Virus record (IMG/VR): IMGVR_UViG_3300025892_000012
Coordinates: 1 to 64,000 of that record
Strand: one strand, 5' to 3'
Source: a virus
DNA: 64,000 nucleotides
Every line of letters starts with the position of its first letter. Positions within the stretch are counted from its first letter, which is position 1. Under the pieces are notes generated by a model. That model saw only the letters and a program-made list of their open reading frames with translations. It made no database searches and had not been told where the DNA came from. Positions 10,044 to 46,262 of this stretch are shown piece after piece. The position numbers were made by a program, and so were the translations under genes.

Positions 10044-10051
10044 TATAAATA
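10044..10051 (+). promoter_or_regulatory. T4-type late promoter for scaffold gene
   Basis: An exact TATAAATA octamer lies in the 59-nt gap between the protease and scaffold genes, about 47 nt before the gp22 ATG. The exact match in an intergenic gap makes this one of the better promoter calls in the window. Confidence 0.65.
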
Positions 10052-20700: not shown

Positions 20701-23700
20701 AGATGCATTTATAGTACATGCTAATATACCCGTAAGTCAACCTTTATTAAGATATAAAACTTTAAAAAACATTACAGATGCACAAGCAGATGTTGATGAT
20801 TTCACAGTTTATGTTAATGGAGATGGTACTTTATTAGGTGATATTACTAATACTAGAAATCATACTCAACAAACATTTGAATTAAAACATAGTGATATTT
20901 ACAGAATTAGAAGTGTTCAAGTTAGTGTTGGTAAACTGACAGGACCTTATGTTGACATTACAGATTATTTTACATTAGATGATGGGCAAAGAGCAACACA
21001 TTACGATCATGGAAGGCTTGTTCTTAAATCATATTTGAAACTACCTGATATCAATAATTTAGATACTTCTATAACAGAAGCAACGATTACAGCCGCATCT
21101 CAAAATGTTTATAGATTCAGAGTAAATTATGATTTTTTTGAACCTACAAATGGCCATTTTTTCACTGTAGATAGTTATACAAATATTCATTATAGAAAAA
21201 TTCCTACTTATATAGATTCTGCTAGAGACAAATTTCCACTAAGAAATGTTATTGACTTTAGACCAGTGAGAAGACCCATTGGTTCAATAAGTGATTATGA
21301 ACAAGAAACTGATATAGTAAGTATAATTAATCTTGATTTTGATTATTACTATCATAAAGAAAAAGTTATAGCTTTACAAGGTAATGGAACTTCTGAAATT
21401 AAGTTAGTTTATCAAGAAGCCGAAAATTATGTACCTTCTTTTTATAATATAAAACTTTATGAGATTACATTACCCGCATATACATTTGAATTTGAAGACA
21501 TTAATTATAAATTAATTGATAATAAAAATTATACTATGAAAGATATTTCTAAACTTCAAAAAAGAATAGAAAATTTAGAAGATATCGCACAATTAAATGC
21601 TTTAGAATTACAAGCAATACAAACTAAATTAACTGATGTAAATGGTAATCCACGTTTTACTAATGGATTGTTAGTGGATATGTTTTCTGGTTTTGCAATA
21701 GCAAAAGTAGATCAAGAAGGATTCGCAGCATCTATAGACATTGAACAAATGAAACTATATCCTTCATTTAGCTCAAACAATAGTTTATTGCATATTGCAC
21801 CAACGACTTCAATTTCTAATAATTTTCCTACAGTAAAAAATAATATAGCATATTTGCCAATTGCTGGACATAATGAAATTGTAAATTCATTTGATACGAA
21901 TATAACTTCTACGTTAAATTCACAGTTATCTTTTAAGAATGGTAAATTAACACTCCATCCTTATAGTGATGTTTGGTATAGTAAAGACTCTACACCTATT
22001 GTTTTACTAAACGAAGATAATCAATTTAAAAATTGGAAGCTATTAAGAAGTTCTGCACATGGAACACAATGGAAAGATTGGGAGCAATTTTGGTCCGGAG
22101 TGCCAGTAGAATCTAACATATTGACTGTAGCAAATGCTACTCTTTCTCAAAAAACTGGTAGATTAATTAATAATAAAAATAACATTGAGAAAGTGATAAA
22201 TGATAAGAGAGTAAATACCACACTCACATTAAAATCTAGAGCCGGAAGAATAGGATTTGTATTTGAAATGTTATCAAAAGATGTTAATGAATATGGTATT
22301 TATATTAACTCTAATTTAGTAACAACAAATGCCGGTCAAAGAATTACATTCACAACAACTAGTGGCTTATCTGTAAATAATTTTAGAACACTATATCAAG
22401 GACTCAATATCACTCAAAATGCAGTTGCTGGACTTGCAAGTGGTGTTGTGAATCATATTCAACACATTAGTAATAAAGACTATTACCTATATGTAACTAA
22501 TATAGATAATTATATATTTGATACTAGTGCAAAAATAAATGAATTAAATGGTTCAATTTCAGCTATTCATACTTATGGAACAAGTAGAGTTTCATTAGAT
22601 GATAATTCAATATTGTGCGGAGATTTCACTATAGGAGAAAGTGATTATCCTTCAGGTACAGCTTTAGATGTACAAATAAGAGATTTAAATGCACAAACGA
22701 ATAATATTGTTGGTTCTAATAAATTTTATATAAATGGTTTGTTAGAAACAAAAACTAGTTTTGTACAATCTATCAGACCCGCACAAAGAAAATTGTATTC
22801 TGATAGTGAAAGTAATTACATTGACGATAAAACATTTGTAATTAATAACACAACAAGAATACCAACACCTATACATCAACCATTTATTTTAAATGATTCT
22901 GTATTTTTGTCCAAGTTTTCTTTTAGATATACATGTAATCAAGATTCAAAGGTTATAATAACCATACAACCTATGGTAAATAATAATCTGTCACCATCAC
23001 TGGTTGTTCCGTTTAGTGAAAAAATAATTAGTTTGCCATTAAATACTACTGGTACAGAATATGAAGTAGAATATGATATACCAATATTCTTAGCATCTAA
23101 TAAAGAATATGCGATAGTTTTTAGAAGTGAAAATGATGTACATTTTTATACTCACAGTAATTTCAATTCAAATATTTTTATAGACCAAGCAGTTGGTACA
23201 AACGGAATATCATCTAATGGTAGTGTTCTTCAATTAAAATTGTATAGTGCTGTGTTTAACACAAATCAAAGAGAAATGACACTTAATATAAAAGAATCTA
23301 CTTATAATGAAAATGTTGACAGATATCGTTTAAATATAAACTCTTTAGATTTAACAGATACTAATATAAATTATCGTTGGAAAGCAAAGAATTATGATAC
23401 TAATGTACAAGACATATTATATCAAAACATTCCTGCTAATGAAACTAAATTATTAGAAAAAAGAAAAATATTTACTCCTAATGATTATGAGTTAATAGTA
23501 AACATGAATTCTAATGATGCGAGAGTCACACCTATGATAGATTTAAGTAGATTTTCATTAACTACTGTAAATCATAAAATAGATAATGGTTTATTCTTAC
23601 AAAATAATGTAAGCATTACAAGAACAGGAGCAAATACAGATAGAGTGCAATTAACACTTACAGAATACGACCCCAACGGCATTCATAATAGGAAATGTAT

Positions 23701-24319
23701 TTTTACAGTAGATGCTCTCGGAAATATTAATAATTTCTTTTCAGACCCCAAGTTCTTATTGAATGTTTCTGAATATACCGTAACCATTAAAAAGTTTGAT
23801 ACTGTTTCAAATACTTTCGTTAATTATAATCCTGCAGTAAGTATTAGTTCAGATAGTTTTGTTAGAAATAGAAAAAATATAACGGATACTACAATAGGAT
23901 TGAAAATAATATTAGATTTAATTACTGAGTATGATGCAACAGCAATAGGGAATACTTCTTATCGTTACTATTCTCCTATCGTAACACTTGCCGATGATTT
24001 TGAAGCAATGCAATTATATGTTCAAATGGATGCAGTGTTAAGAAGAACGAATGATGTATTTGTATTTTATCGTGTACTTGAAAATACACAATCCTTTGAT
24101 ACCTTTAAAGAACAGCATTATAAACTTATGAACATAAAAACTAATGATGCTGATAAATATACTAATAGTATAGCAAAGACTATAGAATTTGAGAGCAATA
24201 GAACAGATCCACCAGACTCTAGATTTAAATATTTTCAAATAAAAGTTTGTTTTACCAGTACTAATTATATAGAAATACCCGTGGTAGAAAATATAAGAAT
24301 TTTAGCATTAGACAACTAA
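17789..24319 (+). CDS. Large DUF4815-like baseplate/fibre structural protein
   Basis: A 2176-aa virion protein. The N-terminus (VLFKPGYPLQSAELISLQ, then RFGDHVFKDGSMV, residues about 27-70) is the signature of the DUF4815 family found in large tail-region proteins of T4-like marine phages. Near residue 1250 lies a coiled coil (MKDISKLQKRIENLEDIAQL) followed by GLLVDMFSGFAIAKVDQ, also typical. The C-terminal half is beta-rich, with jelly-roll-like segments. Likely role: attachment platform linking the baseplate to fibres; this is inferred from family context. AAAGGAA precedes the start. Its TAA stop is part of the next gene's ribosome binding site. Confidence 0.85.
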   Translation: MAKTLLPEIANSPYFIKYPGRNFSQVLFKPGYPLQSAELISLQNIVNEQISRFGDHVFKDGSMVTTSGGFEKNGGIDYDHCQLYELSEDANLLAFVPENSTIVIKDTTVDINLDISTVLEADFVTFKNAFIKDGIVYPNYMGLKFNNGQIQQNLAELFSTSLPSRFDVYVKFSNNVLGSKIGTLNSLAATDGMFAMIKDTVFYTSGYFTNIEEQKLIYHIGDASLMNVEVGVELQWEIADISHPTYGSQLFDPAQNAFNENSPGADRLILNLMLKEHDLNYVQSNDDWKFTPLLKFKNGDLIYRIKYPIYSVLGDTLARTTYEIHGNFVIDPFKLNVTSDALLTGTHTVTEYDNSLDGETVYTITGSETTYTNLTIGNYVMFGSVVDYNRLLKIVRIDSDLRMKVSDVHYDSYPDFSTNSPDYFSEAKVGTTISLRDEEKLNYVLSEGKAYVNGYRFETTFQTKIEDNKSRDFKTAEAAVLPNQHYFELSSYFHTENFINFKKLDTLDLHCTKNKELYQLTISLSTAFNLPIVVGINEELEINGTIFKNIKTTTTNGGDVISNYELISYSNNTNTGLPTIGVDYTVTNRTNGTQNIYRLKTIEKIADTPFERDSSTNYSANILNDNYANTSTISIVSSTLDFENTSTSYNNSFAQDDYVLIEDVNDVTVKVFGLVTNIPGNPSSSMTVKTNTTVFTNNATEYRITKPSYNQFYDYQYGSTKIGTIRSNSVGVDDPERFRFSHYELNHSIKSFDVVKVNTVTNKIEAVSLELSQVDDVYNGMFIEYNGSTWEISDYVGATQEFTLLGVSALNPINFAIGDNINLTAHLSNLNSIISSAFANGKGFYGNVVKNTLGYPVIKTPNQTQNKFSSIIDNEDGEVKNVRVDDYSIFYQEKWIVTGVDISSLSKAIGTDFISDFNIDNNNVKVYAATNILDGTTNYLKYSSGQSVPFSSVTLVGSNLTINFNETFNNTDAFIVHANIPVSQPLLRYKTLKNITDAQADVDDFTVYVNGDGTLLGDITNTRNHTQQTFELKHSDIYRIRSVQVSVGKLTGPYVDITDYFTLDDGQRATHYDHGRLVLKSYLKLPDINNLDTSITEATITAASQNVYRFRVNYDFFEPTNGHFFTVDSYTNIHYRKIPTYIDSARDKFPLRNVIDFRPVRRPIGSISDYEQETDIVSIINLDFDYYYHKEKVIALQGNGTSEIKLVYQEAENYVPSFYNIKLYEITLPAYTFEFEDINYKLIDNKNYTMKDISKLQKRIENLEDIAQLNALELQAIQTKLTDVNGNPRFTNGLLVDMFSGFAIAKVDQEGFAASIDIEQMKLYPSFSSNNSLLHIAPTTSISNNFPTVKNNIAYLPIAGHNEIVNSFDTNITSTLNSQLSFKNGKLTLHPYSDVWYSKDSTPIVLLNEDNQFKNWKLLRSSAHGTQWKDWEQFWSGVPVESNILTVANATLSQKTGRLINNKNNIEKVINDKRVNTTLTLKSRAGRIGFVFEMLSKDVNEYGIYINSNLVTTNAGQRITFTTTSGLSVNNFRTLYQGLNITQNAVAGLASGVVNHIQHISNKDYYLYVTNIDNYIFDTSAKINELNGSISAIHTYGTSRVSLDDNSILCGDFTIGESDYPSGTALDVQIRDLNAQTNNIVGSNKFYINGLLETKTSFVQSIRPAQRKLYSDSESNYIDDKTFVINNTTRIPTPIHQPFILNDSVFLSKFSFRYTCNQDSKVIITIQPMVNNNLSPSLVVPFSEKIISLPLNTTGTEYEVEYDIPIFLASNKEYAIVFRSENDVHFYTHSNFNSNIFIDQAVGTNGISSNGSVLQLKLYSAVFNTNQREMTLNIKESTYNENVDRYRLNINSLDLTDTNINYRWKAKNYDTNVQDILYQNIPANETKLLEKRKIFTPNDYELIVNMNSNDARVTPMIDLSRFSLTTVNHKIDNGLFLQNNVSITRTGANTDRVQLTLTEYDPNGIHNRKCIFTVDALGNINNFFSDPKFLLNVSEYTVTIKKFDTVSNTFVNYNPAVSISSDSFVRNRKNITDTTIGLKIILDLITEYDATAIGNTSYRYYSPIVTLADDFEAMQLYVQMDAVLRRTNDVFVFYRVLENTQSFDTFKEQHYKLMNIKTNDADKYTNSIAKTIEFESNRTDPPDSRFKYFQIKVCFTSTNYIEIPVVENIRILALDN

Positions 24320-24332
24320 GGAGGTACGTTTG
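24317..24332 (+). promoter_or_regulatory. Perfect Shine-Dalgarno with TTG start
   Basis: TAAGGAGGT (24317-24325) is a full complement to the 16S rRNA 3' end. It includes the TAA stop of the upstream gene and sits 4 nt before TTG (24330-24332). It decides the rare TTG start of the S74 fibre gene. Confidence 0.85.
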
Positions 24333-27300
24333 CAGGTTTTAAATGTTAAACCACAAAGCACAGATGTTGGGGCATCTAAACCACCCCAAAGAAGAGAAGT
24401 TATTCTTCAAGATCACCATCAAACTTGGTTAGCAAACTTTAATGAAATACGTGATGAAGTAAATCAAGCAACTTCCTATTCTATACCAAGAACATTAGTA
24501 TATAGAAATGAGTACGGAAGTTTTGGTGCAAATACTATTGCGGCAAATCAACTTATATTCGGCAACTCAGACCCAACTGCAGATCCTGAAGATTCACCAA
24601 TAATAATGAATGCGGATGGATTGACTTTAGGACCAAGCACAACACTAAATGTAAAAGGTCCTGCCAAATTTTCCAATACTGTGCATCTAGATGCTAATAG
24701 TGAATTTAATTTAGATGGTCCATTAAACAGTAACAGTGTAGCTAATTTTAGGGATGTAACTAATTTTTATGCATTTACTCATTTTCATCCATCAAGTGTA
24801 CTTTTTGTAGACACTACATCTATTTTTAATGACAGTGTTAGTATCAACGCTCCTTTAGGAGTAGAAGGTCCAGTAACTATTGTAGGAGATATCAATCAAA
24901 CGGGTAACAATACAATTGATGGAAGTGTTGATATTGAAGATGATTTAATTATCCGTGGTAATCTTACCGTTTTGGGTGAAAAAACTCAACTAGAAGTTAC
25001 CGAACTTGTTGTAGAAGATAAAAATATTGTAGTAAACAAAAATGATGTATATACGCCGTTAGATGCTGGTTTGTTCATACAAAAAGGAACAATTGAAAAT
25101 GCTGGATATTTCAAAGTTCATAGTTCTGATGATAGTTTACTTCAATTAAAAGCACCGACCGGTTTTGACATCACGATTGATATTCCATCACAAGATGTTA
25201 AATTTAGATTAGAGAGTGACTTTGCTGCAGATCAAGAGTTGCTAACAACATCTAATGTAGCATTTCGTTCACTAGTATTAGATAAAACTTTTAGTAGACA
25301 TAATTTAGTACCAAGCTATACACAAAACCATGATGCTATAGCTGCAGGAAAAGGTTGGATTTCTACTCCTTGGGTTTATACAAACGCAGTAGAGTCATCT
25401 GATAATTTAATAGATGCTAACACTACTGGCTTGTTTATGGGTACTACAACTCATACAATGAGAAATGAAATCAGTTTTTTGTCAAATGGTAACACCAAAT
25501 TTCATATTGATTATTTTGGAAATATCGGGATGGGTACTCTTAACCCTCTCTCTGATTTACATCTTGCAAGTATAAATCCAGAAATTACAATCACTACTGA
25601 AGACTATAAATCAAATGCAACTTTATCATTTACTGATTTTGCAGAACGAGTAGATGATTCTGGAATGTATCTTGCTTTTGATGCAAATACAGGTTCTGGA
25701 ATACTAGAACTCACAACTCAAGATTATCAAACCAAATTTGACATATCTGTCGGTGGATATAATAAAACTCCAGAAGTAACAATTTCAAATGACAAAGTAA
25801 GTTTCTTTACTGATGTAGATGTTTTGGGCAATGGTTATGTAGATAAAGAATTGATTGTTGATAGTACTTTATATGTAAGAAGCAATAAAGTAGGTGTAAA
25901 TGTAGTAACACCTGCGTATGCATTTGATGTTTCTGGTTCAATAAGAGGAAACAGTGATTTAATTTTAGATGGCTTAGAACCATTTATAAAGGTTGGCACG
26001 GTCACTTCTCTTGAACCAAATGGAAGAAGTGGATTAGTAGTACAAGAAGAAAGTCCTGTTGTGCAATTAAGTACTACTGAAGATGAGTACAGACATGGTT
26101 CTATTTTATATTTCAATGATTCTTATCATGATTCTAATTGGGTTATTGGAACAAGCTTAAATGGTAATAAATTAGATTTTGGTAAATCATTTAGCAAGTC
26201 TGCAAATACTCCAGAATATGGTTTGGATGAATATCATGGTCAAACTCTTTTAAGATTTACAGAAGAAGATAGAAGTGAATTTTATCTTGAAGCAGATAAT
26301 TCAAATGCAGCATTAATTCTAAACACAAGAACAAATGGTATTCATTTATATCTTGGTGAAGAAAATAATGTATTAGGACCAACAATTCCTAGACCTACAA
26401 CTACCTATACATCAAATGATTTTAGTTCTGTAATCCAATGGCATGGTAGTGAAGTAACTGTTGGTGAACTCACTTATTTCCCAAATGGAAATGACGATGG
26501 TGAATTTGGCTCATTTAGATTCTCAAGAACAGATGGTCAAGTAAATCAAGATGTACCAAGTGCAAAAGTTGGAGCAAATCAATTTTATGCTAATGATAAA
26601 ATAGCAGTTTCCCAAACTACACCTACTGCTGAACTTCATATTACAAAAGATTATTCAGAAGCTTTAATTGAAACAGAAGACGCACAAACATTTATAAAAA
26701 TGTTTGTGAATGATTCAACTGAAACTGTAAATATGCGAGGAGAAAATTCAAGTGGTGCCGCAACTTCTTATTTTGCTTTTAATGCATCAAATCCCGCTTC
26801 ACTTGATTTTACATCAGGTGACCATTCACTCACAGGTTCTTCAGATCATTCAACACAAATCATAACACTATCATTATCAGAAACAAGAAATCCATCCAAC
26901 TTTAAATTACAAACTGAGTCAAATAAGAATTTCATAGACATTACCAGAACTTCTTCTAATTTAAATTATTCATTGGATGTTATTGACCAAGATAATGTGA
27001 TAACCGACAGTAAAAGTTCAACAACTCTAGAGATGAAGTCTGAGTTAAACGAAGCTTTAAAATCTATTCAATATAATTATTATTCAAGTACAAATAATTT
27101 GATTAAATCATTTTACTTAGATGATATTAATCAAACAATTAGCGAGTTAAATGCTTCTAATAATTTAGATTATTCAACAATATTAGATGAACCAAATAAA
27201 AAATTAACTTATCATAGTAATGTATACACAGTCTTTAATAAACACACATTAACTGATGTTGATATTGAATATCGTTCTCAAATAGCTAATGATAAACATT

Positions 27301-28505
27301 ATACTCTTGAATTGGGTGCTGCAGAGAGTAATTTAAATTTATCAAGAGATAATTCTGATTTTAATTTGAAAATATTTAATGATGATACAAAATTAACATT
27401 AGAAAATAATAAAGGCATTGATGCGTATGGAACTATAGATACACCTACACAACTTGAATTAGATTTAGATTCAACAGGTAATTCTTATATGATGTTTAGT
27501 GGTTATAGATTTACTTTTAAACATGAAACACATCCTCTATTCAATGCTTATCATGATTATGTTGATTTTATTTCTCCTGTGAATTTTTATAATGATGTTT
27601 TGATAGAAGGTGCATTGACTGCAAATAGTGGTATTACATTCCCAACATCAAATCCTAATAATAAAATTGAATTCAATCTAACTGATTTAGAAGGTGAAGA
27701 CGATGATGATAGAACAAGCATTACAAACTATATTAAATGGACATGTAATACAGATGCGGCGCAAATTTATTTTGCCTCTACGGATGATACAAGTACAAAG
27801 TTTTGGGGAGATTCGCAAGAAACTGTAGATACATCAAGACTTATATTTCAATCGGAAGACAATGAAAATGAAGGTTTTGAATTTAAACATGTGTCTTCAA
27901 CGGGTAATGGTGTAAAAGAAATACTTTTATTAGACCGTCAACATGCTTATGTAAATGTACCAATATTACAAACTCATGAAGGTAGACTTATTGAGTACCA
28001 ATCAAATAATAACAAATGGTTACTAGCTGAAGAAAATACAGATACAGGTCTTTATTTTAATGTAGATTCTACAGCATTATCATTTACTAATAATTTGAGC
28101 GAATATACAAATGCTGAAAATATAAACAATCAATATGTCTTTGTAAAAGAAGGTACACCTAAAGCTAGTATAGATTTAGATACTGGCTCAATCAGAACTG
28201 CGGGAGACCTTGTAGCTGACAATGATGTAATAGGTTTTGTTACTTCAGATAAAAATTATAAAGAAAATATTATGAATATGACAAATGCTTTAGATAAAAT
28301 AGATTTGATTCGTGGCGTAGAATTTGATTGGAAAGAAAATCCAAGTGGATACAACGGTCATGATGTTGGAGTGATCGCACAAGAGATAGAAGAAGTAATA
28401 CCAGAAGCAGTAAGAGTAGGCGCAAATGGTCAAAAACAAGTTAATTATGATAGAATTATACCATTATTAATTGAATGTATTAAAGAATTAAAATCAAAAC
28501 TATAA
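24330..28505 (+). CDS. Tail fibre with C-terminal S74 self-cleaving chaperone
   Basis: A 1391-aa fibre starting at TTG behind a perfect Shine-Dalgarno sequence. The N-terminal part is beta-solenoid-like with repeated short units (GNLTVLGEKTQLEVTELVV, then EDKNIVVNKN, around residue 210-240), a segment widely shared among phage fibres. The last 86 residues form a peptidase-S74-type intramolecular chaperone: SDKNYKENI with Ser1306 and Lys1311 in the S-x4-K dyad spacing, then GVEFDWKENPSGYNGHDVGV and IAQEIEEVIPEAV. In this family the chaperone trimerises the fibre and cuts itself off. It is likely a side or tail fibre attached to the preceding large protein. Confidence 0.9.
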   Translation: MQVLNVKPQSTDVGASKPPQRREVILQDHHQTWLANFNEIRDEVNQATSYSIPRTLVYRNEYGSFGANTIAANQLIFGNSDPTADPEDSPIIMNADGLTLGPSTTLNVKGPAKFSNTVHLDANSEFNLDGPLNSNSVANFRDVTNFYAFTHFHPSSVLFVDTTSIFNDSVSINAPLGVEGPVTIVGDINQTGNNTIDGSVDIEDDLIIRGNLTVLGEKTQLEVTELVVEDKNIVVNKNDVYTPLDAGLFIQKGTIENAGYFKVHSSDDSLLQLKAPTGFDITIDIPSQDVKFRLESDFAADQELLTTSNVAFRSLVLDKTFSRHNLVPSYTQNHDAIAAGKGWISTPWVYTNAVESSDNLIDANTTGLFMGTTTHTMRNEISFLSNGNTKFHIDYFGNIGMGTLNPLSDLHLASINPEITITTEDYKSNATLSFTDFAERVDDSGMYLAFDANTGSGILELTTQDYQTKFDISVGGYNKTPEVTISNDKVSFFTDVDVLGNGYVDKELIVDSTLYVRSNKVGVNVVTPAYAFDVSGSIRGNSDLILDGLEPFIKVGTVTSLEPNGRSGLVVQEESPVVQLSTTEDEYRHGSILYFNDSYHDSNWVIGTSLNGNKLDFGKSFSKSANTPEYGLDEYHGQTLLRFTEEDRSEFYLEADNSNAALILNTRTNGIHLYLGEENNVLGPTIPRPTTTYTSNDFSSVIQWHGSEVTVGELTYFPNGNDDGEFGSFRFSRTDGQVNQDVPSAKVGANQFYANDKIAVSQTTPTAELHITKDYSEALIETEDAQTFIKMFVNDSTETVNMRGENSSGAATSYFAFNASNPASLDFTSGDHSLTGSSDHSTQIITLSLSETRNPSNFKLQTESNKNFIDITRTSSNLNYSLDVIDQDNVITDSKSSTTLEMKSELNEALKSIQYNYYSSTNNLIKSFYLDDINQTISELNASNNLDYSTILDEPNKKLTYHSNVYTVFNKHTLTDVDIEYRSQIANDKHYTLELGAAESNLNLSRDNSDFNLKIFNDDTKLTLENNKGIDAYGTIDTPTQLELDLDSTGNSYMMFSGYRFTFKHETHPLFNAYHDYVDFISPVNFYNDVLIEGALTANSGITFPTSNPNNKIEFNLTDLEGEDDDDRTSITNYIKWTCNTDAAQIYFASTDDTSTKFWGDSQETVDTSRLIFQSEDNENEGFEFKHVSSTGNGVKEILLLDRQHAYVNVPILQTHEGRLIEYQSNNNKWLLAEENTDTGLYFNVDSTALSFTNNLSEYTNAENINNQYVFVKEGTPKASIDLDTGSIRTAGDLVADNDVIGFVTSDKNYKENIMNMTNALDKIDLIRGVEFDWKENPSGYNGHDVGVIAQEIEEVIPEAVRVGANGQKQVNYDRIIPLLIECIKELKSKL

Positions 28506-28518
28506 GGAAAGTTTTAAG

Positions 28519-29994
28519 ATGCCATCAGCCATCGGCGGTCAATACGGTTTTACATTAGCTACAGATAATACGATTACGGATGTTAATGGTTTTTGGAGAT
28601 TAGCTAGTGGCATTGACACATACACATTCACTTTTTCTGCAGGCGGAACAAAGCGAGGTTCTGAGGGAGATGCTTCGTTACGGGCTGGAGGTAGTTGGCA
28701 ATGTCTGGCATATAATAATAGTGGGTTTTTTCGAGTTGCTGGTAATTTTTCCACCGCATGGCCGTCTCAAGGTAGAGGGTCAGAAACAGTTACTATAACA
28801 TTTCCTGGGTCAAATCCACCCGGAAGCCGTAATTATTTTAAGATTTATGCAAGTCTGACTGATTCACATAACAGTGGAACGTCGGTCATTTCTGGAAAAA
28901 TTCAATATCCTCCTGATAATCTTCCGCCTATTGTTACTATTATTCCAGTATCTATTATTGTTACAAATTCATCTGGTAGTAAATTTACAGCAAGTGATCC
29001 AGCAATAATTAGTGTTTCTGCTGTTGATGACAGTACTTATAATAGTGGTTTAAAATCAATTAATATTGATGGTACAGATTATAATACTTCACCGCAAAAT
29101 ATTCAATATAGTGGAGAAGTATTACATACTGTTACTGCTAGAGCGAAAGACAACAATGATAATGTATCTGCAGATTCCACATATGATTTTTCAATTGATA
29201 CCACACCACCTTCAGTAAGCATAGGTGTAGATGCTACAACCGGAACATTATATACATCAGGCACTAATCCTTATTATAATACAGACACAATAGTTGTAAA
29301 AATAGATACATCAGATTCGGGTTCGGGTCTTGATGATGGCATATTGAATATAAATGGAACAGATACAGCATTTTCTACCATACCTACCCAAACTAGCTAT
29401 CTAGCTACACTTACTCCTACTGAAGGTATAGTTGAAGGTCAAAATGTTGTAAAGTATACATCTAAAGATGTTGTTGGAAATGAAGCAAGTGATGAAGTTT
29501 CTTTTTATGTAGACACAACAGAACCGACCTGTTTTATAGTTATTTCCACTCAAGATAGTATACGTGAAAATAATAGTATTTTATATACAAAAGAATCAAA
29601 TGTAAATGTTAACTTGCATTTTGGAGACGGTGGAACAGATCCAAGTGGAACATCTAAAGGACTTGTAAAAATAAATAATAGTACAACACCAACAGTTGCT
29701 GATTTTTCAAGTGGAATAGATTTATCATCCGAAACATCTCCGAAAAACGATTACAATATTACAGGTCTTGTTGCTGGTCAATTAAATGAATTAACTTTTT
29801 TTGTCAAAGATAAAACTGATAATATTTCATCAGGAGACACAGTATCAGTTTTTGTAGACCAAACTCTCCCAACTGGTAGTATATTAATATCTACTCAACA
29901 ACTAAAATCAACTGTGAGTTCATTAGATCATGCAAACACTGTTGATTTAAAAGTAAAATTAGAACATGCAGATACAGATTCTGGATTATTTTAA
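28519..29994 (+). CDS. Ig-repeat fibre protein, C-terminally truncated
   Basis: A 491-aa protein. Residues 1-125 form a unique beta-rich domain; the rest is three Ig-like repeats marked by DTTPPSVSI, DTTEPTCFI and DQTLPTGSI, as in bacterial surface Big/Ig-like adhesins. The last repeat stops halfway, at DTDSGLF. The missing second half (AFGASVSP ... NTIYYYLMDVAQNISS) can be recognised within the next gene at about 31409, so this gene appears to be the 5' part of a once longer gene. AAGGAAAG precedes the ATG. Function: probable host-surface adhesin. Confidence 0.75.
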   Translation: MPSAIGGQYGFTLATDNTITDVNGFWRLASGIDTYTFTFSAGGTKRGSEGDASLRAGGSWQCLAYNNSGFFRVAGNFSTAWPSQGRGSETVTITFPGSNPPGSRNYFKIYASLTDSHNSGTSVISGKIQYPPDNLPPIVTIIPVSIIVTNSSGSKFTASDPAIISVSAVDDSTYNSGLKSINIDGTDYNTSPQNIQYSGEVLHTVTARAKDNNDNVSADSTYDFSIDTTPPSVSIGVDATTGTLYTSGTNPYYNTDTIVVKIDTSDSGSGLDDGILNINGTDTAFSTIPTQTSYLATLTPTEGIVEGQNVVKYTSKDVVGNEASDEVSFYVDTTEPTCFIVISTQDSIRENNSILYTKESNVNVNLHFGDGGTDPSGTSKGLVKINNSTTPTVADFSSGIDLSSETSPKNDYNITGLVAGQLNELTFFVKDKTDNISSGDTVSVFVDQTLPTGSILISTQQLKSTVSSLDHANTVDLKVKLEHADTDSGLF

Positions 29995-30007
29995 AGGTTT
30001 AAAATAA

Positions 30008-33000
30008 ATGGCAGTAGTTAACCCATCTTGGCTAGGTAGTGGAACTGTAACATACAATTATACAGGCCATTTACTAGTATATGCTCAGGCAGTAAATCAA
30101 AGTAATCCAAGTCAAGTTGGTGGCATAACCATACATTCCATAGGTGCTGAAGGTAATGCTGGAGGCAATGATATTAATAAAACACTTCAAGAATATACAG
30201 GAATTACCTTTAGTTTTAGTGGAGATGCCACAACACTGTATTATGGGGATGGTACAACAATTTGGGAAAAATATTCAGGCCAAGTGAATTCGTCATGGTC
30301 TACTATTACATGGTTATCTGGTTCAACAAGTCGCTTAGATCCAATATTTGATGAAGTTGTGAGTGATGGTTGGGAAGTAGATAGAACTAAACAAATTGCA
30401 CAAATGACTAGTATTCCAGGAGCAAGTGGTTTTTCATATGGAAGTGAGGAATGGAATCATAAATTAGCAGGTGAATCTACATTTAGTCGCAGCAATTTAA
30501 AAAACATATCAGATATTAGTGAATTTGCTGGTGCAGAATTTGACTTTAAGAATATGGATATTATTACAATTTTAGTAGAGAATGCATTAGACTTCGGTAT
30601 TTCATTTCAGGCTTCAGGTGATTTGGCAACTTTATATTGGATTTCGCCTTTTATTAAAATTGAAAAACCAAGTTTACCATCTCCACCTCCAGAACCTGAG
30701 CCAGAACCTGAGCCAGAACCTGAGTCAAGTCCTGCACCTGCACCTAATCCTGAACCTGTTTCTGCAACAGGTTGCTGGGACTGGATTGCGCCGTATGACT
30801 ATCCGATTCAATTTCTAAATTTCAAAAAGAATTATCCAGTTGGTGATGTACCCCCCGGTGTTATGTCTAACAATTTAGAATTTTTTGCTACTGATTTAGC
30901 AGGTGCTCAAAGCATAGTAAAAATAATAAATGATTTTAGACCATATGCATTATCTAATGTTTACACTGATGTTTGGAACATAAAAGATAATGCAGGATAT
31001 GCTCTACTACCTACAAGTGGATATTCCAATGGAGATCACTTACTTGTTGTGAATTTATCGGAAGCCAAAAATGGAAAATATCAAGTTGTATTTGATGATT
31101 TGGGTGTAACTGTAGGTGTAATATTTAAATCTGGAATAGAAACTGAGAATGTAACATTAAATGATACAGCTTTGTATAGTATGACGTTTAGTTTGGCAAC
31201 TTATACTTGCGGTGGAGAAAGTAGTGCACCGGAATCTAATCCCCCATCTTCATCAGAAAGCACACCAATTAGTCGCACAACAGTTACACCACCAACACAA
31301 CCGGCTACACCAACACAGACTTCATTAACTGGTGGTTCTATATTACTATTACATTCAGACACTAACCCACCAACTCAGCCAGCTACACCAACACCTGCAG
31401 ATTTTTTTGCATTCGGAGCGTCTGTATCTCCAGCGACATCATCATCTACAGACCCATATAGTTTTAACAGTGATTTTATTAGTGGAACTTCTCTGACGAA
31501 TAATTCTATTAATACAATTTATTATTATTTAATGGATGTTGCGCAAAATATTTCAAGTCTTGGTTCAGTAACTTATTATAAAGATATGGATAAACCTACT
31601 AACATAGTAGTAAATCCAACTATAAATTCACCATATACAGCGGAATGGTTAGGTGTAAATAAACTATTTTCATTCACTGGCTCAGTAAATGTTTGTGATA
31701 ATCCAACTCCTGCTAATGGTGTAGGTGGAGGAACAGGTGCGAGTCCTGCAGGTTCAGGTATTATAATTGAACATTTTGAATATAGTAATGCGAGTACACC
31801 AAGCTCAGGTACTTCATTTCAAAATAATATAAATGCAACACAATGTGTTGTCTTTGATTTAGGTTCAAGGCCGGATACGTATGTTAATATTGCAGCACAA
31901 GCAAATGGAACTGATTACTATCTACACTACAATACTAAAGACAAAGCATTAAATACTTCTGATTTTATAAAATTTGATTTTAAAATAGACAATGATGATC
32001 CTTATATTTTAAGATTTAATAATTCTGGAGGATGTACACGTATAGCTCAAGATTACTTATATGTAGTTCAAGAAGTAACAGATAATACATCTGGAGTTGT
32101 TTATTATAATCAAGGTTCATCTAAAACAGGTTCTAATAAAATTACACTTACAACTAATTATGTGAGTCCCAACCATTTAGATATATTTCAACAAGTTCAA
32201 ATCGGTTCAACTCCAGGGGCAGTAAATGTTTTCATAGAAAGTTATGACCAAGCCGAAAATCATGTAGATAATATATTCACTGTAGAGAGAACAAGTCAAA
32301 CAATAAATTGGATCACTCTTACAGGCGCTAGGTCTTCTATCTCACCTTTTGTGGTAGAAGGTACTTATAAAGCAGAAATTACTCCAACAAGTCCTGAACT
32401 TATCAATGGGTTTTTCCCAACAGCAAACTTATATTATTCACCAATGGGTACAGATTATGATACTTCAGTAGGTTCTCAAGCTATTTCTGAACAGGACTTC
32501 AGAATGTTAGTTAAAGATACAAATACAAAAGATGCTATTATGTATCTAAGAACCGATGGACATCCACATGCGTGTGCTACTAAAGCATTTACATTTACAT
32601 CAATTGATTATTCTACACTAAGCGCAACGCCACCAACTTTATCCATTGTAGAAGAAAATCAATTAACATGTACGAATAAATCAGATAATTACTACAGACT
32701 AATTGCAACTGCAGGAAATGTTACTGCAGATGGAACGACTACAGTGAATGGTGATTTAATTATAGGCTATAAAATAACAGAATCATCTACTTCTCCTGGT
32801 ATACAACCAACTTTTAATGATGTAACAGGTAAATTTGAGGATGTTACTAATGTAGGATGGACTGTTTTTGTAAGTGGAGTAAATTCTTTTGATGTAAACA
32901 AAGAGTTTTCATTTGCGGCAAATTCTTTTGGAACCAAAACTCTTTACTTACATATAGCTACTATGGCATATAGTGGTTTATATGCTTCTGTAAGTACAGG

Positions 33001-35170
33001 GTTAACATTTTCTGCATCAACACAGATAGAATATGTAAATGATTTTCAAGGACCAACATTATCAAATGTTCAAGTAACAGATTCTAATGCTGTAACAGAA
33101 AACGCAACATTAACTTCTGGTATAGCGCCTGAGCAAACATTTACTAAACCAACTGAAGTAACGGCAGATACTATAACTATTTCTGGAACATTAACAGATA
33201 ATTTAACTTCTGTAGGATGTACATGTGTTAAAAGATGGGTAGTAGGAAATTTTGGAAATCCACCCCCATATACACTAACAAAGCCTGGTGTTTGGAATAT
33301 TGTTTCCGGTACACAACAGTCTATTAACTTTACACAAGTAGTAACTTTAAATAGACCAAATTCAACAAAATCAATTTATGTCTGGGCTGTAGATTGTGTT
33401 GGTAATTTGTCTAAAAATAAAATAAGAATTACATTAAATAATCCCGCTTACGCAATACCTGATTGTGGTCAAGAAGCTGGTAATGTATTTAAGTTTGAAG
33501 GTAAAGCAGGTGATGAACACAGACTAAGAAAAACTATTTCTGCTATGTATGGAGATGGTGTATTTCATGTAGGATTTATTTCAAATAAAACAAGTAAAAT
33601 TAGATTAAATCGTGTTCATAAATTAAGTGAATATAGAGGATTAAAAATTATAAACAAAGGTAATAATGATGCACATGAAAATCTACCAATACCAAACGAA
33701 CCTTTAAAATTTTCTGATTTTTTTCCTCACAAAATACCAAGAATAGATGACTTAACTATTGTTCCATTTATACCTCCTGTTAGTCAGCCTGCAGTAACAA
33801 ATGTTCCCCAATATGTTGGTGATACAAGGGATATCGCACTCACGTTAGATATTGACACTGGCAATAATATTGTTGACCATAAATTACCAATGAATGATAA
33901 TCTTGTGGATGACAGTGCAAAATTCTTCGTAGATTTTATAGAAGAAGGTTCGGGTTTAGTGAAACCCAGAACATTCTCTTATAATCCAGTAACAGGTCAT
34001 ATTAATAATTTTGTTTTTGATAAACCTGGAGTATATTTTATAATAGGATTTTCTTCTTTTTGTCAATCAGTTAGTGCAACATATAGAATATATAAGAAAG
34101 GCGCACCTTTACCACCAATACAAGGTCCACCTATTGATGTACCTGTACCAATAGGTAATCCAGGCGGAACAACACCAGTAACCATACCATTTTTTATAGA
34201 CCAAGTTTCGCTTGCTGTAGATGCGGCTTTTGTTATAGACCGTTCGGGTAGTTATGTACCCGGATTTTCAAATGCTATGTATAGTACATTATCAGAATCA
34301 TTAGATGCTCTTGATTCATTTGCTAAAAACACTACTACAAATTCAACAGATTCAAGATATTCAGTAGTTTGGTTTTGGAATCCAACATCTAGAGGAGGTA
34401 TAGAAACTGCTCAAAATTGGACTTCTGATAGAAGTAAAATAGATGCCGCTGTTGCTAAATATAAAGATAGTGGGTCTGGTGGTTGGGAACCCAAAATAGA
34501 AGCTATTGCGAGAGTAGCAGGTGAAGACTTAGTAGGTCCTTGGAGAGAAACCGCACTTAAATTAGTATTGTTATATTCGGATGAACCTGACGGCGCTCCA
34601 ACAAATACTTCAGCAGGTTCTTCTGATAGTAAATATACTTCAGCAAATTCACCAGATTATTTTATTAATAAATTTGTTGATAATAAAGTTGCATTACTTA
34701 TTTTTGATGCTGGTTTGAATTATTCAGATCGTTCAGACCCAATAGGTCCTGGATCTACTATTAATCAAGATAATTTACTGAAGGCTATATCAGATACTAG
34801 CGAAAATGGAAGTGTTGTACAAACTTTGGGTTTAAGTGCCAGTTCAGCAGATATTGTTAATGCAATAAACAAAGCGTTTGATAAATATAAAGAAGGATTA
34901 AGTTTTGATATAGAACCGGATTTATCTACACCTGCAATATTTAAATCAAAATCTGCAAATTCAGCGCATCCTGCTGGTACACCTGTACCCATTCCATATA
35001 ATAAATTAATTGATGATGGGTCACGTAAAAAAGCATTATTTGATGTTTTATTAGATAATGATGAAGTCTATAGTTTAGGTACTCAATATATCATAACATT
35101 TGTAACTATATATAACTCTTCTGACATACCGATTGCTAGAAAAATGATAAGAATTAGAGTTGTGCCTTGA
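30008..35170 (+). CDS. Large Ig-repeat protein with C-terminal VWA/MIDAS domain
   Basis: A 1720-aa probable virion adhesin. Order of parts: a unique N-terminal domain (1-215); a Pro-Glu linker (about 220-245, P-E repeats); a second unique domain containing GCWDW; a Thr/Pro linker with a duplicated PPTQPATPT; Ig-like repeats; and from about residue 1400 a von Willebrand factor A domain. The last begins AFVIDRSGSYVPGF, with the metal-site motif D1411-x-S1413-x-S1415, followed by YSVVWFWNP and LKLVLLYSDEPDG. VWA domains bind protein or glycan ligands through the metal ion. The role in attachment is inferred. Shine-Dalgarno TAAAGG overlaps the upstream stop. Confidence 0.82.
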   Translation: MAVVNPSWLGSGTVTYNYTGHLLVYAQAVNQSNPSQVGGITIHSIGAEGNAGGNDINKTLQEYTGITFSFSGDATTLYYGDGTTIWEKYSGQVNSSWSTITWLSGSTSRLDPIFDEVVSDGWEVDRTKQIAQMTSIPGASGFSYGSEEWNHKLAGESTFSRSNLKNISDISEFAGAEFDFKNMDIITILVENALDFGISFQASGDLATLYWISPFIKIEKPSLPSPPPEPEPEPEPEPESSPAPAPNPEPVSATGCWDWIAPYDYPIQFLNFKKNYPVGDVPPGVMSNNLEFFATDLAGAQSIVKIINDFRPYALSNVYTDVWNIKDNAGYALLPTSGYSNGDHLLVVNLSEAKNGKYQVVFDDLGVTVGVIFKSGIETENVTLNDTALYSMTFSLATYTCGGESSAPESNPPSSSESTPISRTTVTPPTQPATPTQTSLTGGSILLLHSDTNPPTQPATPTPADFFAFGASVSPATSSSTDPYSFNSDFISGTSLTNNSINTIYYYLMDVAQNISSLGSVTYYKDMDKPTNIVVNPTINSPYTAEWLGVNKLFSFTGSVNVCDNPTPANGVGGGTGASPAGSGIIIEHFEYSNASTPSSGTSFQNNINATQCVVFDLGSRPDTYVNIAAQANGTDYYLHYNTKDKALNTSDFIKFDFKIDNDDPYILRFNNSGGCTRIAQDYLYVVQEVTDNTSGVVYYNQGSSKTGSNKITLTTNYVSPNHLDIFQQVQIGSTPGAVNVFIESYDQAENHVDNIFTVERTSQTINWITLTGARSSISPFVVEGTYKAEITPTSPELINGFFPTANLYYSPMGTDYDTSVGSQAISEQDFRMLVKDTNTKDAIMYLRTDGHPHACATKAFTFTSIDYSTLSATPPTLSIVEENQLTCTNKSDNYYRLIATAGNVTADGTTTVNGDLIIGYKITESSTSPGIQPTFNDVTGKFEDVTNVGWTVFVSGVNSFDVNKEFSFAANSFGTKTLYLHIATMAYSGLYASVSTGLTFSASTQIEYVNDFQGPTLSNVQVTDSNAVTENATLTSGIAPEQTFTKPTEVTADTITISGTLTDNLTSVGCTCVKRWVVGNFGNPPPYTLTKPGVWNIVSGTQQSINFTQVVTLNRPNSTKSIYVWAVDCVGNLSKNKIRITLNNPAYAIPDCGQEAGNVFKFEGKAGDEHRLRKTISAMYGDGVFHVGFISNKTSKIRLNRVHKLSEYRGLKIINKGNNDAHENLPIPNEPLKFSDFFPHKIPRIDDLTIVPFIPPVSQPAVTNVPQYVGDTRDIALTLDIDTGNNIVDHKLPMNDNLVDDSAKFFVDFIEEGSGLVKPRTFSYNPVTGHINNFVFDKPGVYFIIGFSSFCQSVSATYRIYKKGAPLPPIQGPPIDVPVPIGNPGGTTPVTIPFFIDQVSLAVDAAFVIDRSGSYVPGFSNAMYSTLSESLDALDSFAKNTTTNSTDSRYSVVWFWNPTSRGGIETAQNWTSDRSKIDAAVAKYKDSGSGGWEPKIEAIARVAGEDLVGPWRETALKLVLLYSDEPDGAPTNTSAGSSDSKYTSANSPDYFINKFVDNKVALLIFDAGLNYSDRSDPIGPGSTINQDNLLKAISDTSENGSVVQTLGLSASSADIVNAINKAFDKYKEGLSFDIEPDLSTPAIFKSKSANSAHPAGTPVPIPYNKLIDDGSRKKALFDVLLDNDEVYSLGTQYIITFVTIYNSSDIPIARKMIRIRVVP
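30689..30724 (+). repeat. Pro-Glu coding repeat, 12 bp x 3
   Basis: CCAGAACCTGAG occurs three times in exact tandem and encodes a P-E-P-E linker between two domains of the VWA protein. Such linkers are stiff and extended and prone to copy-number change. Confidence 0.9.
31289..31393 (+). repeat. Duplicated PPTQPATPT linker
   Basis: Two copies (31289-31315 and 31367-31393) of a 27-bp segment encoding PPTQPATPT, 78 bp apart. The copy in between encodes GGSILLLHS, similar to the start of the last Ig repeat of the upstream gene. This lies at the presumed right boundary of an insertion that split an Ig domain. Confidence 0.75.
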
Positions 35171-35177
35171 GTAGTAA

Positions 35178-35185
35178 TCTAAATA
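35178..35185 (+). promoter_or_regulatory. Possible late promoter before the giant Ig-repeat gene
   Basis: TCTAAATA matches the late octamer at 7 of 8 positions in the 62-nt gap, 48 nt before the ATG. The distance is like that of the better promoters, but the AT-rich context makes this tentative. Confidence 0.35.
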
Positions 35186-35232
35186 AAAAAAATACTTATT
35201 TAAAATTAAAAAAACACCACTGAAATAAAAAT

Positions 35233-38200
35233 ATGGCAATTACAGGAAGCATCTATTTAAGTACCGCAGCTATTGTATTAACTGCACCTCCAAAATATCA
35301 ATTAACATTCAATGTCAATGCAAACAGTACAAATTTATTAACAAAATATCAATTATTTGTTGATAATGTTCAAGTGGGTGTAGATCAAATTATAAATCCA
35401 AATATTAATAATTATTCTAACACAAATATTGCATATGCAGTGGATGGTACTGGTTGGCATGATATAGGTATTTTATTTTTTGATGATCAAGGAAACACAC
35501 AGTTATTTACAACTAGAATATATTTGGATTTAACAAATCCTATTTTAAATGGGTTTGCTTTAAATAGAATAGAACGTGATGCCACTAATGATTATGTAGT
35601 TTACTTTGATATAGATGTTTCTGATGAAACTGGTATTTCAAGAACTAAAATTATAAATTCAAATGATGGCACTTCCTCTGAAGTTTTAGTGCCGTTAAGT
35701 TTTAATGATTATCGGGCTGAACAAAGTATAGTTGTTCCTGGATTTAATAATAATGTCACAAAAGATTTTTATTTAGAATGGGAAGATTATTCTGGTAATA
35801 TAATACAAACTACTTCTCCCATTACTGTATTTTTTACAAATACTTTACCTGTTATAACAAATTTTGAGGTAAAGGAAATTACACAAACAGCAACAGATTA
35901 TGTAGTTACTACAGAAATTGGAACATCTTTTGCTAGTTATCAAGATATTATAGAATACTCTGTGACATATGAAGACCCTGCTTCTGTTTGGAAAAATATA
36001 TTAATAACTACTAGTGGTGGTGTGATAACAGATACATTCACAATACCACTTTCAGAACCAGCAGGTTTAAAAACATTATATGCAAAAATTAAAGATAATT
36101 ATCAAAATGAATCAAATGTTTTTCCAATTAATCATCTTATAGATAAAGTTAACCCAATAGGTTCTGTAAAATTAGAATATGCAGAAAAAATTGGATCAAA
36201 TTACTATGCTAATGTTAAATTCACAGCAACAGATGCTGGTCTAATTTCTCATTATTCTCATAATTTTATAAGTGAAAACGTAACAAATTGGAATGTAGTT
36301 AATCCTAAGACACAAACTTTTAATAAATTTAAAACGTTTAATTTAGGAACTAACGGACAATCTGTGATGTATGTTAAATATCGTGATTTTTCCGGAAATC
36401 TTTCTCCAGCATATCAATTGCCACTTGATATTGACACAACAAATCCAGAATTTGAATTTTCATTTGATCATGGTGAATTAAGAATTGATGGTGATTATAA
36501 TGCATTTTTTCATTTACTTGCAAGTGATAATAATAAAATAAAATTTATAAAGTTATTTGGTGTAAATCAAATAACGTCAAATTTAATTGGAAGTAATAAT
36601 TGGGTACAGATTGCCGAAACTAATCAATATGAAGAAATAAGACCAATTGTAATACCCGCAACAGAAAATGAAGATATTATAAAATTTTATTATCAAGTAA
36701 GAGACCTGTATGGAAATTATAGTGCTTTTAAAACTATAGATTTAAATTTTGATAAAACAGCACCAGTAGTTAATACATTTACATATAAAGATGCGGAGAA
36801 ATATTCCACATACCATAGAATACATTTTGATTTTAATGCTACTGATAATTTAGGAATTATAGCTTATAGATTAGGTTTTGATGATATCACTGTAGAATCT
36901 TGGATAAACGTAACAAATACAACAAATTTAGATAAGTCTGTATATGTAGACTTATATAATGCTAATGAACTTGGTGTTACCAAAGATGTATTGGTTCAAG
37001 TAAAAGATGTTTTTGGAAATGTAAGTAACATAGCTTCTTATTCTGTCAAATTAGAAGATCAATCACCACTCGGTTCTCTAACCTTTGCTGGTGGGGGATT
37101 GTCACCTACAGATTTCTTATTAGATTTTGATATAACAGGAGTAGATACTGATAGTGATGTTTATTGGTACTCATTAGAAATTGACGATTCAACAATTACA
37201 AATTGGTATAAAGTAAACACACCTGGTTTAAACATAGCTCAAGTTGTGCAAAAGACACTACCAAGAGCCAGTACAGGAAGACATAATTTTTATTTGAGAG
37301 TAGCAGACATTTATAAAAATGTGAGTCCGACTTATAATTTAGAATATGATTTGGATTCTATTGCAGTTGTTGGTGGTTTGGAAGTAGACGATATTGAAAA
37401 ATCTGCATTAAATTATACAGCAAATGTTCATTTATATGCATTTGATAACAGAAAAGTAAAATCATATTCTTTAAATGGTGGTGCAGATACACTTCTTGTA
37501 CCAGCAGTAAAATCATTTGATGATTATGTTTTAGTTCCTCTCGGATTAACACCTGGCCAAAAGCAAATAACTGTTCAATACAAAGACACTTTTGATAATT
37601 TATCAAATACATATAGTGTTGTTTTTAATTTAGATAATATTGACCCACATAGTAATATAGTATTCAATAATGCTACATCTAATACTACTACTATGTTTAT
37701 GAATATAGATACTCATTTAACAGATAATCAAGATGTTTATGAGTATAAATTTTGGTATGTTGGAGATTCAGAACCGTATGATTATACTACACTACCAAGA
37801 GGAATAGTTAATACTACAATAAATAAAATCTTTGAAGTTCCTAAATCAGATACATTTCCTCAATTTACAGTCAGGGTCAGAGACTTTTTTGATAATGAAC
37901 ATAGCAACACTTTATCTAAAATAGTAACTACTGTACCACCAACAATCAATTCACTTACTGTAAATTCAATTTCCTATACAGTTGCTGGTATTAATGTAGG
38001 TGTAGATTATGTTGTTACTGCGGATAATAATTCAACTGTAGATTACTTAGATGTAGTTGTAAATCCATCTGGCGCAACACAATTAGATGCATTTACTGTA
38101 AATATAGATCCGAATGTTGTAAACGCAACCGGTACTTTTTATTATGACTTTCCTATAATTTCAAATTTTAATTTTGAAGTGAAAGCTTATTCTGATTATG

Positions 38201-41200
38201 GTTATTATTCTGCTCCTTCATACTTAGCACAGAATTTTGATTCAATCGGTCCAGTTATAAGTAATGTTACATTTTTAGGAAGTTTTGATGATAACAATGA
38301 TTACATTCTTCAATTCAGAATTCAAGGAACTGATGCAACAAGCGGTATTAGAAAAATACAAGCAACTGCATTAACTACTCCGAATCCAATTACGACTTCT
38401 TATACAATTGATTTAACTAATAATTTAGATGAAGTTGTTCATTTAAGATTAGATAGGTCAAGTACATCAAATTACATTGATGTTTCATTCATACTATTTG
38501 ATTTATTAGATAATCCTTCAAATTCATATACACTATCCAATCTTTACTTAGATAGTGATGCACCTCAGATTTCAAACACAATCTTTAATTTAAATAAAAA
38601 ATATGGAGGTTCTGTATTACCAGGTGCAAATACTCCAAATATTGAAGTTTCCTTTGATGCTTATGATTTTTCAAACATAACACATTATAAGTATTCTCCT
38701 AATTTAACAGAAACGTATAATGCCAGTTGGACATCAATAGCTGAAGCACAAACAATATCTGTAACTGAAACTGTAAATTTAGATACGTTAGGATTTGTTG
38801 AAGGTGCTAGAGTATTTTACTTTCATGTAAGAGATAGATTTAACAATATTGCAACTGCTGGCATAAATGTTGAATATGATAAAACACCGCCTTCTGTTTC
38901 TACTACATTTTTAAATAGAATAGAAAGAGCAAATGTAGCCGGCATTGATACATTTGTAATACCATACACATTAGCTTATTCAGATAATTATTCAGAAGTT
39001 CTTACTTTACATGAAAATTATGAATACGGCACAACATCATCAAATACAATTTCTAAAAATTTATTACCTCAAGTAACTTCAAATACTGTTACTGAGCGTC
39101 ATTATGTTCCTGTAAACTATTATGGAGATACTACGATTAATATTGCTTTAGAAGATAGATTTGAAAATGTATCTGCAAATTCATCTTTTAATGTATTCTT
39201 AGAGAATAATCCACCAGTTATACATTATGCTAAAATTAATAATGGTGCTGTGTATACAACATCAAAAGATGTTTATATAAGAATGGATTTAAGTGATGAC
39301 CAAGGTGTGACTGAAAGATTGTTTTCTACAGCTAATAATGAAACATGGAACAGTGTAGGATGGGTTCCAATACCATATGCACCAGCAAGAAATATAACAC
39401 CTACGTTTAGTGTTGATTTAGAAGCCCTTGGATTTACACAAGGTACTTGTAATGTTTATGCATACATCAAAGACTTTTGTCAAAATATAAGTAATACTGC
39501 TCAAACTATTATATATGATTATGAACCCCCTGTAATAACAGATTTCAAAGTTAATAATATAATCAGAAACATTAATACATTTGAAGTAAGTTTAAATGGT
39601 TATTCTTATGATGTTACTTCTGGATTGGATACATATTATATTTCTCAAAGTAATAATCATAATACTTATAAATCAGTACCTAATGCACCTGTAATTGGAA
39701 ATACTCCAATATTGTTTAATCAAATTGAAAGCATATCAAATAAAGACACGGGTTGGAAATATTTCTATTTCCAAACTACAGATGCAGCAGGAAATATATC
39801 AGCTAAAGCAAATACACAAATATATATTGACGGTTTAGCACCTGTTATAGCGTTTTTCCAACCTACAAGTACAATATCAAAATACTATTTGAATGCTGCT
39901 AATAATGAATTTGAATATATTGTTTCTGATGATTATGCCTTAACATCTATTCAATATGAAATAGATAATAGTGCATTGTCAGTTGTAAACACATATGATG
40001 CTAATAATAATATATTATATGATGCAAATACTTTCTTAGCTGATTTCAGTAGTTTAGTAGATGGAGAACATACCATTTATCTAAATGCATTTGATAGTTT
40101 CAATAATAGAGTAAGAATTCCATATGAATTTTACTTTGATAATACACCTCCAGTCATAACGAATTATGACTTCAAAAAGATTAAACCTGTTGTTCCTGAC
40201 AGTACACACTATGATGTAGAACTAAGATTATCTGCATATGATAATGTATCAGTTGATTACTATGAAATTTATGTAGATGGTAATTTACTTTCTTCAGTAG
40301 ATGTTGATGCAGTTAACTTTAATCATACTCCAACAGTTAATACAACTTTAACTACTATGTTTGAATCTGACTTAGACATGACATTGGCACTCATAGTAGA
40401 TGGTTATGGTGGTGGTAAAATTCTTACTGTAGCAATGGTAGAAAATTATACAGGAACTCAAACAGAAGATGACCAAATTAAATTGTTTGCAAATGTTGAA
40501 TTAGGTATACCTACAACTGAAATTAATACATATGCCGTTTTAGGAAATGATATAGATATCATTACACAAAATACTATGCCAGGAGCAACCACTACATTGA
40601 GCGATGAGATAACAAGCATTAATTATGGTGACCCTGCATTTCCTACAAATCCATATACTCTAATACAATTACAATATGAGACTGGAACATTTCCATTCTT
40701 GCCAACATCAACATTGTCAAATTATATAACTAATAATTATTCTTATTTGGTGGGTACAGGACCTTCACCAGGGAGATATAATACAGCTTATGTAACTGGT
40801 AGATTTACTGATTTAAGTGTTAAGAAAGAATTGCATCATTATGTTGTTAAAGTATATGATAATGCCGGTAATATGACTCAAGGTACATTATCTAAATTCA
40901 TACACAATGGTGATAACTTAAAGATTGAGAATTTTACTGTAGATTCAGTTACTACAATAAATAGAACAGATATTTCAGATGAAATATTTCAAGCAGATAT
41001 TTCAAGTGATGTTGATATCATTGAATATGCATTAACAATACATCCGCAAATAGATTATGATAGTGCATTATGGAAAAATTTTGTAACTCCTGCAAACACA
41101 ATATCTTATACTGAAACAGTAAATACTGACATCTTTGCTGTTAGTACGCTATCTACAAACAAAGTATATTTACATGTGAAAGATGATTGCGGAAATGTTG

Positions 41201-42201: not shown

Positions 42202-42424
42202 AAACTATAAAAGAGACCGCAATACACTTGCTATTGTTGCAGTAAATAAAGAAGATATAAATACTCATAGGTCCACAATACACCAAAGAAATTTATTACA
42301 TTCTTATTTAAATAATCAAAGTGATGAAATTCGTCTTCTTAAAAATGAATTAACAGAATTAAAAAATATTATAATCAATTTAGTAAAAAATCAAGATAAT
42401 TTAGGAAAAGCTAATGGCAATTAA
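42191..42424 (+). CDS. Small coiled-coil protein
   Basis: A 77-aa product if read from GTG at 42191 (MSIENYKRDRN...); an in-frame TTG at 42179 is an alternative. The C-terminal half (SDEIRLLKNELTELKNIIIN) is a clear heptad coiled coil. It overlaps the stop of the giant Ig gene by 11 nt and the start of the following fibre by 11 nt, so all three are translationally coupled. Similar small coiled-coil proteins occur near fibre genes of T4-like marine phages. Function unknown; a trimeric connector is possible. Confidence 0.65.
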   Translation: MSIENYKRDRNTLAIVAVNKEDINTHRSTIHQRNLLHSYLNNQSDEIRLLKNELTELKNIIINLVKNQDNLGKANGN

Positions 42425-46250: not shown

Positions 46251-46262
46251 GGATATAAGAAT

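Follow-up and report, generated by a model that had tools for sequence, protein, structure and literature searches.

One Ig-like repeat divided between two adjacent virion genes of a T4-like phage, with a dissimilar module at the break

Two adjacent virion genes of a T4-like myovirus, referred to here as A and B, hold between them the parts of a single Ig repeat (R4), which is divided at a precise point: its first half (R4N) is the C-terminus of protein A and its second half (R4C) lies inside protein B. In our view A and B encode successive portions of a single Ig-repeat virion protein, which is probably an adhesin or fibre associated with the tail. The best explanation overall is that the halves of R4 re-associate across A and B, with an exchangeable module at the break, and we would give this reading a probability of about 0.55.

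The window, that is, the whole 64,000-nt stretch of DNA that was analysed (IMGVR_UViG_3300025892_000012), is a portion of a 93.5-kb IMG/VR virus record. It contains a T4-like myovirus structural gene block: T4-like terminase, tail sheath, tail tube, portal, prohead protease, scaffold and major capsid families are matched upstream, and the major capsid protein is ~56% identical to proteins of marine cyanophages and of phages of Methylophilales. A and B sit within a run of very large virion-protein genes, and the features of this region are the following.

17789-24319: DUF4815 protein
24330-28505: S74 protein (S74 chaperone end)
28519..29994, plus strand: gene A, 491 aa, with a variable N-terminal module, R1-R3 and the first half of R4 (from the ORF and repeat analysis)
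28921-29205, plus strand: R1, complete Ig-like repeat
29206-29520, plus strand: R2, complete Ig-like repeat
29521-29865, plus strand: R3, complete Ig-like repeat
29866..29991, plus strand: R4N, first half of R4 and C-terminus of protein A (from the match to R3 and conservation in the relative L006)
29992..30010, plus strand: A/B gene border (stop TAA 29992-29994, start ATG 30008)
29995..31313, plus strand: putatively exchangeable cassette at the split point, dissimilar to L006 (from DNA comparison)
30008..35170, plus strand: gene B, 1720 aa, with modules, R4C, R5, R6, further beta-domains and a vWA-like end
30008..30667, plus strand: module 1 of protein B, 220 aa
30668-30760, plus strand: Pro-Glu-rich linker after module 1
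30761..31210, plus strand: module 2 of protein B
ending at 31321, plus strand: Pro/Ser/Thr-rich linker after module 2
31322..31591, plus strand: R4C, second half of R4, inside protein B (from the match to R3 and conservation in L006)
31592..31996, plus strand: R5, the next Ig-like domain, unbroken in the window (weak Ig assignment)
31997..32296, plus strand: R6, complete Ig-like repeat (in the repeat-HMM training set)
about 34200-34900, plus strand: vWA-like C-terminal domain of B, with a DxSxS motif
35233-42201: gene C

Proteins D and E, encoded at 42414-47993 of the window, have C-termini that resemble that of the S74 protein, giving three chaperone-like ends in this one block. The octamer TATAAATA precedes window genes in several intergenic gaps (at 10044, 11346, 13286 and 42256, for example), a placement before virion genes that is presumably what is to be expected of a T4-type late promoter octamer; its total count is not above chance in the window nor in L006.

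L006 and a third contig, L016, are the only genuine relatives with the gene block that came out of scans of IMG/VR viral and GTDB genome contigs, in which A, B, C, the S74 protein, the vWA stretch and pair alignments served as queries; contigs of the same phage were also matched. L007-L009 were rejected as relatives, since in their case the similarity is confined to short motifs in the S74 and D proteins, and no relative of A, B or C was found in the Phages collection. L006 has ~60% amino acid identity to the window (61% for the S74 protein).

The C-terminal end of protein A reads ...LEHADTDSGLF, 42 residues into the fourth Ig repeat, and R4N consists of the strands ahead of the predicted B-C loop. 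When profiles made of window and L006 sequence pairs are compared by hhalign, R4N aligns to columns 2-38 of R3 (E 6.5e-5), R4C to columns 55-113 (E 3.5e-6), and R4N and R4C joined to columns 2-113 (E 3.3e-9, probability 96%), which is nearly all of R3. For each half, taken separately, the nearest repeat is R3. The match scores (26.8 and 36.5) lie above all the nulls, for which the maxima are 19.3 and 21.0; these nulls comprised 150 column shuffles and 150 aligned but unrelated stretches taken from the S74 protein. Against an HMM built from the other repeats, R4N falls on model positions 2-39 and R4C on 38-91, and each score taken singly is weak (10.0 and 6.1 bits). In a small HMM of nine repeats, joined R4 does not rise above its halves and many control joins score equally high; since that model gives no bonus for joining, it is on the profile-profile comparison, with its nulls, that the one-domain claim is based. 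Among the complete repeats, R2 is similar to Pfam Big_12 (PF19078) over 74 residues, yet its 23.8 bits fall below the curated family cut-off of 27. The vWA-like end of B is matched by Pfam VWA_2 with an E of 7.8e-4 (20.5 bits, against a cut-off of 27), and its IDRSGS motif is identical across the three phages.

Much of this had been anticipated in an earlier note on this DNA, which had the first Ig gene ending mid-repeat at DTDSGLF and the joined halves aligning along the preceding repeat, just as they do. It also placed the second half in the next gene, correctly, but had it begin at about 31409; the actual start is at about 31322 (SLTGGSILLL), ~90 bases earlier. The ~1.4 kb that it saw between the halves, with a stop, a ribosome binding site and a new N-terminal module, comes to 1319 bp.

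Because both halves are nearest to the same sister repeat, R3, it is most likely that R4 arose intact and was divided later. The direction of this change rests on the R3/R4 sister argument, since no unsplit R4 was found in any relative in the IMG/VR and GTDB scans, and gene A and R4 are absent from L016.

At the border between the genes, an AAAGG-like ribosome binding site lies between the stop codon of A and the start codon of B, and an in-frame TAA (30005-30007) stands directly ahead of the B ATG in the window. DNA similarity between the window and L006 breaks off at 29994, in the A stop codon, and picks up again at 31314. The dissimilar stretch that this leaves between the R4 halves amounts to 1319 bp in the window versus 720 bp in L006, and the two are unrelated. 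The earlier note had suggested looking for the window's intervening segment elsewhere; its module was not found in L006, L016 or the phage records, and has no family, PDB or phage match hinting at a ligand.

The counterpart of A in L006 (A') ends at the same residue, DSGLF-stop, 18 of its last 20 residues being identical to those of A. The counterpart of B (B') opens with its own, unrelated N-terminal module and then enters R4C from the same residue as B, with 67% identity to the window over 90 residues. A' runs into B' through a TAATG overlap, suggestive of coupled translation. (Between the S74 gene and A', at L006:14103-16268, lie two adjacent RXYLT1/exostosin-type glycosyltransferase-like genes, absent in the window, with Pfam E values of about 2e-4 that are below cut-off.) Values of omega, which are rough because synonymous sites are near saturation, are 0.14 for R4N and 0.29 for R4C, compared with 0.40, 0.29, 0.22 and 0.22 for the intact repeats R1, R2, R3 and R6, and 0.52 for the less constrained N-terminal module of A. 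Both halves of R4 are under purifying selection, comparable to that on intact repeats. Taken with the position of the split at the same residue in L006, this selection speaks clearly against a recent lesion: the split of R4 is old and has been retained, and is not damage peculiar to the window genome.

L006 also presents a second break. Its counterpart of B is two genes, and R5 is interrupted by 1440 bp: homology leaves at 18765 and returns at 20206 in a new gene. In the window R5 is continuous across 31699 to 31721, where L006 has this break. The insert contains a Gly-Ser linker and a propeller-like module, which has a weak FG-GAP match (E 0.06), and then a stop codon that is separated by 60 bp from the next start codon. 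A copy of TATAAATA is found at L006:20146-20153, inside the 60-bp gap. R5 is weakly Ig-like by profile (E 0.012). The break point is 36 residues into the domain for R5 versus 42 for R4, and we infer that the two were broken at the same loop, at a similar distance from the domain start. For R5, then, the window appears to be the unsplit relative, and L006 would show the dividing process directly. The window's unbroken R5 could also be a secondary fusion, which is conceivable because L016, the most distant of the three phages, has a gene start near R5.

The claim, put forward in the earlier note, that one long adhesin gene was split in two is thus partly supported and right in outline, by way of the R3 sister argument and the R5 case in L006. 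The inserted segment is not a single conserved insertion, L006 having an unrelated module at that place. The note had looked to a relative with an unsplit gene, and one is at hand for R5, in the window, and not for R4.

In L016 the flanking order matches, with homologues of the S74 protein, B, C, D, E and F. Its B homologue seems to begin near the middle of R5, and an alignment of that start with the second part of R5 (R5C) has no significance (E 0.13). L016 differs from the other two in the stretch from the S74 protein to R6, which is therefore taken as the variable part of the block. In the place of gene A, at L016:15428-17023, is the gene of a 531-residue, vWA-like protein with a DDSGSMS motif. 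The S74 protein of L016 (L016:9371-15427) has a long run of short TTYGPGSNTTVEG-type repeats ahead of its C-terminal chaperone; none were seen in the window or in L006.

How might a domain serve when its halves belong to different proteins? We suggest that the break in the chain falls within the loop that connects the predicted B and C strands (the second and third) of R4, and that the opening strands, with which protein A ends, dock onto the remaining strands in B to make one Ig domain with no covalent link. Docking of this kind would link A to B end to end and leave the module, which stands at the new terminus of B, pointing out to the side. A module with one tether, located at a gene border, could be swapped by recombination with the shaft left undisturbed. 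The Ig loop would then be a mounting address, at which the gene breaks before the module (R4, in both phages) or after it (R5, in L006). Docking is favoured because the halves are complementary and both nearest to R3, and because the same end of A and the same restart are found in L006, with omega within or below the range of intact repeats. A mounting address is favoured by the unrelated segments at the R4 break and by the broken R5 of L006. The most economical account of why both halves have been kept may be that they still fold together and join A to B. AlphaFold2 predictions for A and for B up to residue 765 are of too low confidence (mean pLDDT 38 and 34) to lend docking structural support, and the case for it is weakened by the facts that just two genomes, the window and L006, have the R4 split and that R5 is weakly Ig-like. 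The broader proposition, that a phage shaft is built by way of Ig domains held in common in trans, with one loop as the recurrent address for host-contact modules, so that swapping and joining are the same device, is tentative, and we would place it a little short of even odds.

The serious rival to docking makes R4 a relic of gene fission, in which insertion of a module broke a long protein and left R4N and R4C unpaired, to serve as beta caps or linkers. It is left alive by the partial domain of L016: with its apparent start inside R5 and no recognisable donor strands, the B protein of that phage seems to open with a partial Ig domain that has no recognisable partner, and an incomplete domain is thus perhaps tolerated. 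Core strands that go unpaired would be expected to drift or to be trimmed, whereas the halves of R4 are conserved at full length, with omega like that of intact repeats, and between the two phages identity is 90% over the final 20 residues of A, against 32% for its N-terminal module. We consider this explanation unlikely.

Completion of each half within its own homo-oligomer, R4N by a second A chain and R4C by a second B chain, is improbable. Trimeric fibres are common in phages, and a swap of half Ig folds is conceivable in principle; R4N, however, has the first strands only and R4C the later ones only, which makes them complementary to each other and not to themselves.

It is very improbable that the frames of A and B are joined in expression, whether by frameshifting, ribosome bypassing or intron splicing. 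In L006 the open B' frame extends 12 codons ahead of its start and runs over the end of A', which would be congenial to such joining, but the B frame of the window is closed by the TAA ahead of its ATG and no frame continues R4 past the A stop codon. The segment between the halves is open, protein-like coding sequence with linkers, in frame with R4C, and no conserved slippery site is apparent by eye. A self-splicing intron is disfavoured as well, no group I or II core being matched by Rfam in either of the inserted segments.

Finally, next to no credence is given to an assembly chimera or a chance resemblance of repeats: although just one contig covers the junction 28988-37644 at about 100% identity, the independent contigs of the same phage stopping at 28987 or beginning only at 37645, L006 is a contig from another metagenome with the same gene borders at the same residues (which, by contig-level comparison, excludes assembly error at those borders), and the profile scores stand above all nulls. 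One of these independent contigs, IMGVR_UViG_3300009193_000009, with 99.98% identity to the window, ends at 28987, in R1 of gene A, ~1 kb before the split.

If the halves do pair, a natural split domain would join two virion proteins and at the same time provide a fixed site for module exchange, and this would explain how such phages might change a surface module without rebuilding the shaft. The borders of genes in phage adhesins do not have to coincide with those of domains, and a domain divided between genes escapes annotation gene by gene as well as structure prediction from single chains. In the open-access literature, a search for phage Ig-like domains of the split kind turned up no paper.

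Three known systems bear comparison with A and B. In chaperone-usher pili, donor-strand complementation completes the incomplete Ig fold of one subunit with a strand of its neighbour, and the principle, completion of an Ig fold across subunits, is the one suggested here. The details differ: in pili a single N-terminal strand is inserted into a groove between repeated subunits, whereas in A and B the first strands and the remaining strands are on different proteins. Homology between the two is not expected.

The branched lateral tail fibres of the T5-like phage DT57C are made with two proteins, LtfA and LtfB, LtfB being attached through LtfA, where T5 has one protein (PMC10713586). Two fibre proteins are also what A and B would be. 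The passages on these fibres in that source describe no domain divided between LtfA and LtfB, and the likeness drawn here is one of architecture.

The closest parallel is with RTX adhesins, in which an Ig-like domain is split within one chain and a ligand-binding domain buds from the split; V. cholerae FrhA, A. hydrophila AhLap and the M. primoryensis IBP are examples (PMC10865825, PMC12077191). As in those adhesins, an Ig-repeat protein has a discontinuous Ig-like domain with a separate module at the discontinuity, and, where AhLap has a vWA domain further along the protein, B has a candidate vWA-like one. No RTX nonapeptide repeats (GGxGxDx) were found in A, B or C. In the RTX adhesins the halves and the module are one polypeptide, whereas in the phage the split is where the chain terminates, and each half belongs to a different gene. 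We propose, by analogy, that the A/B arrangement may be a form of the split Ig-like domain of RTX adhesins that works in trans.
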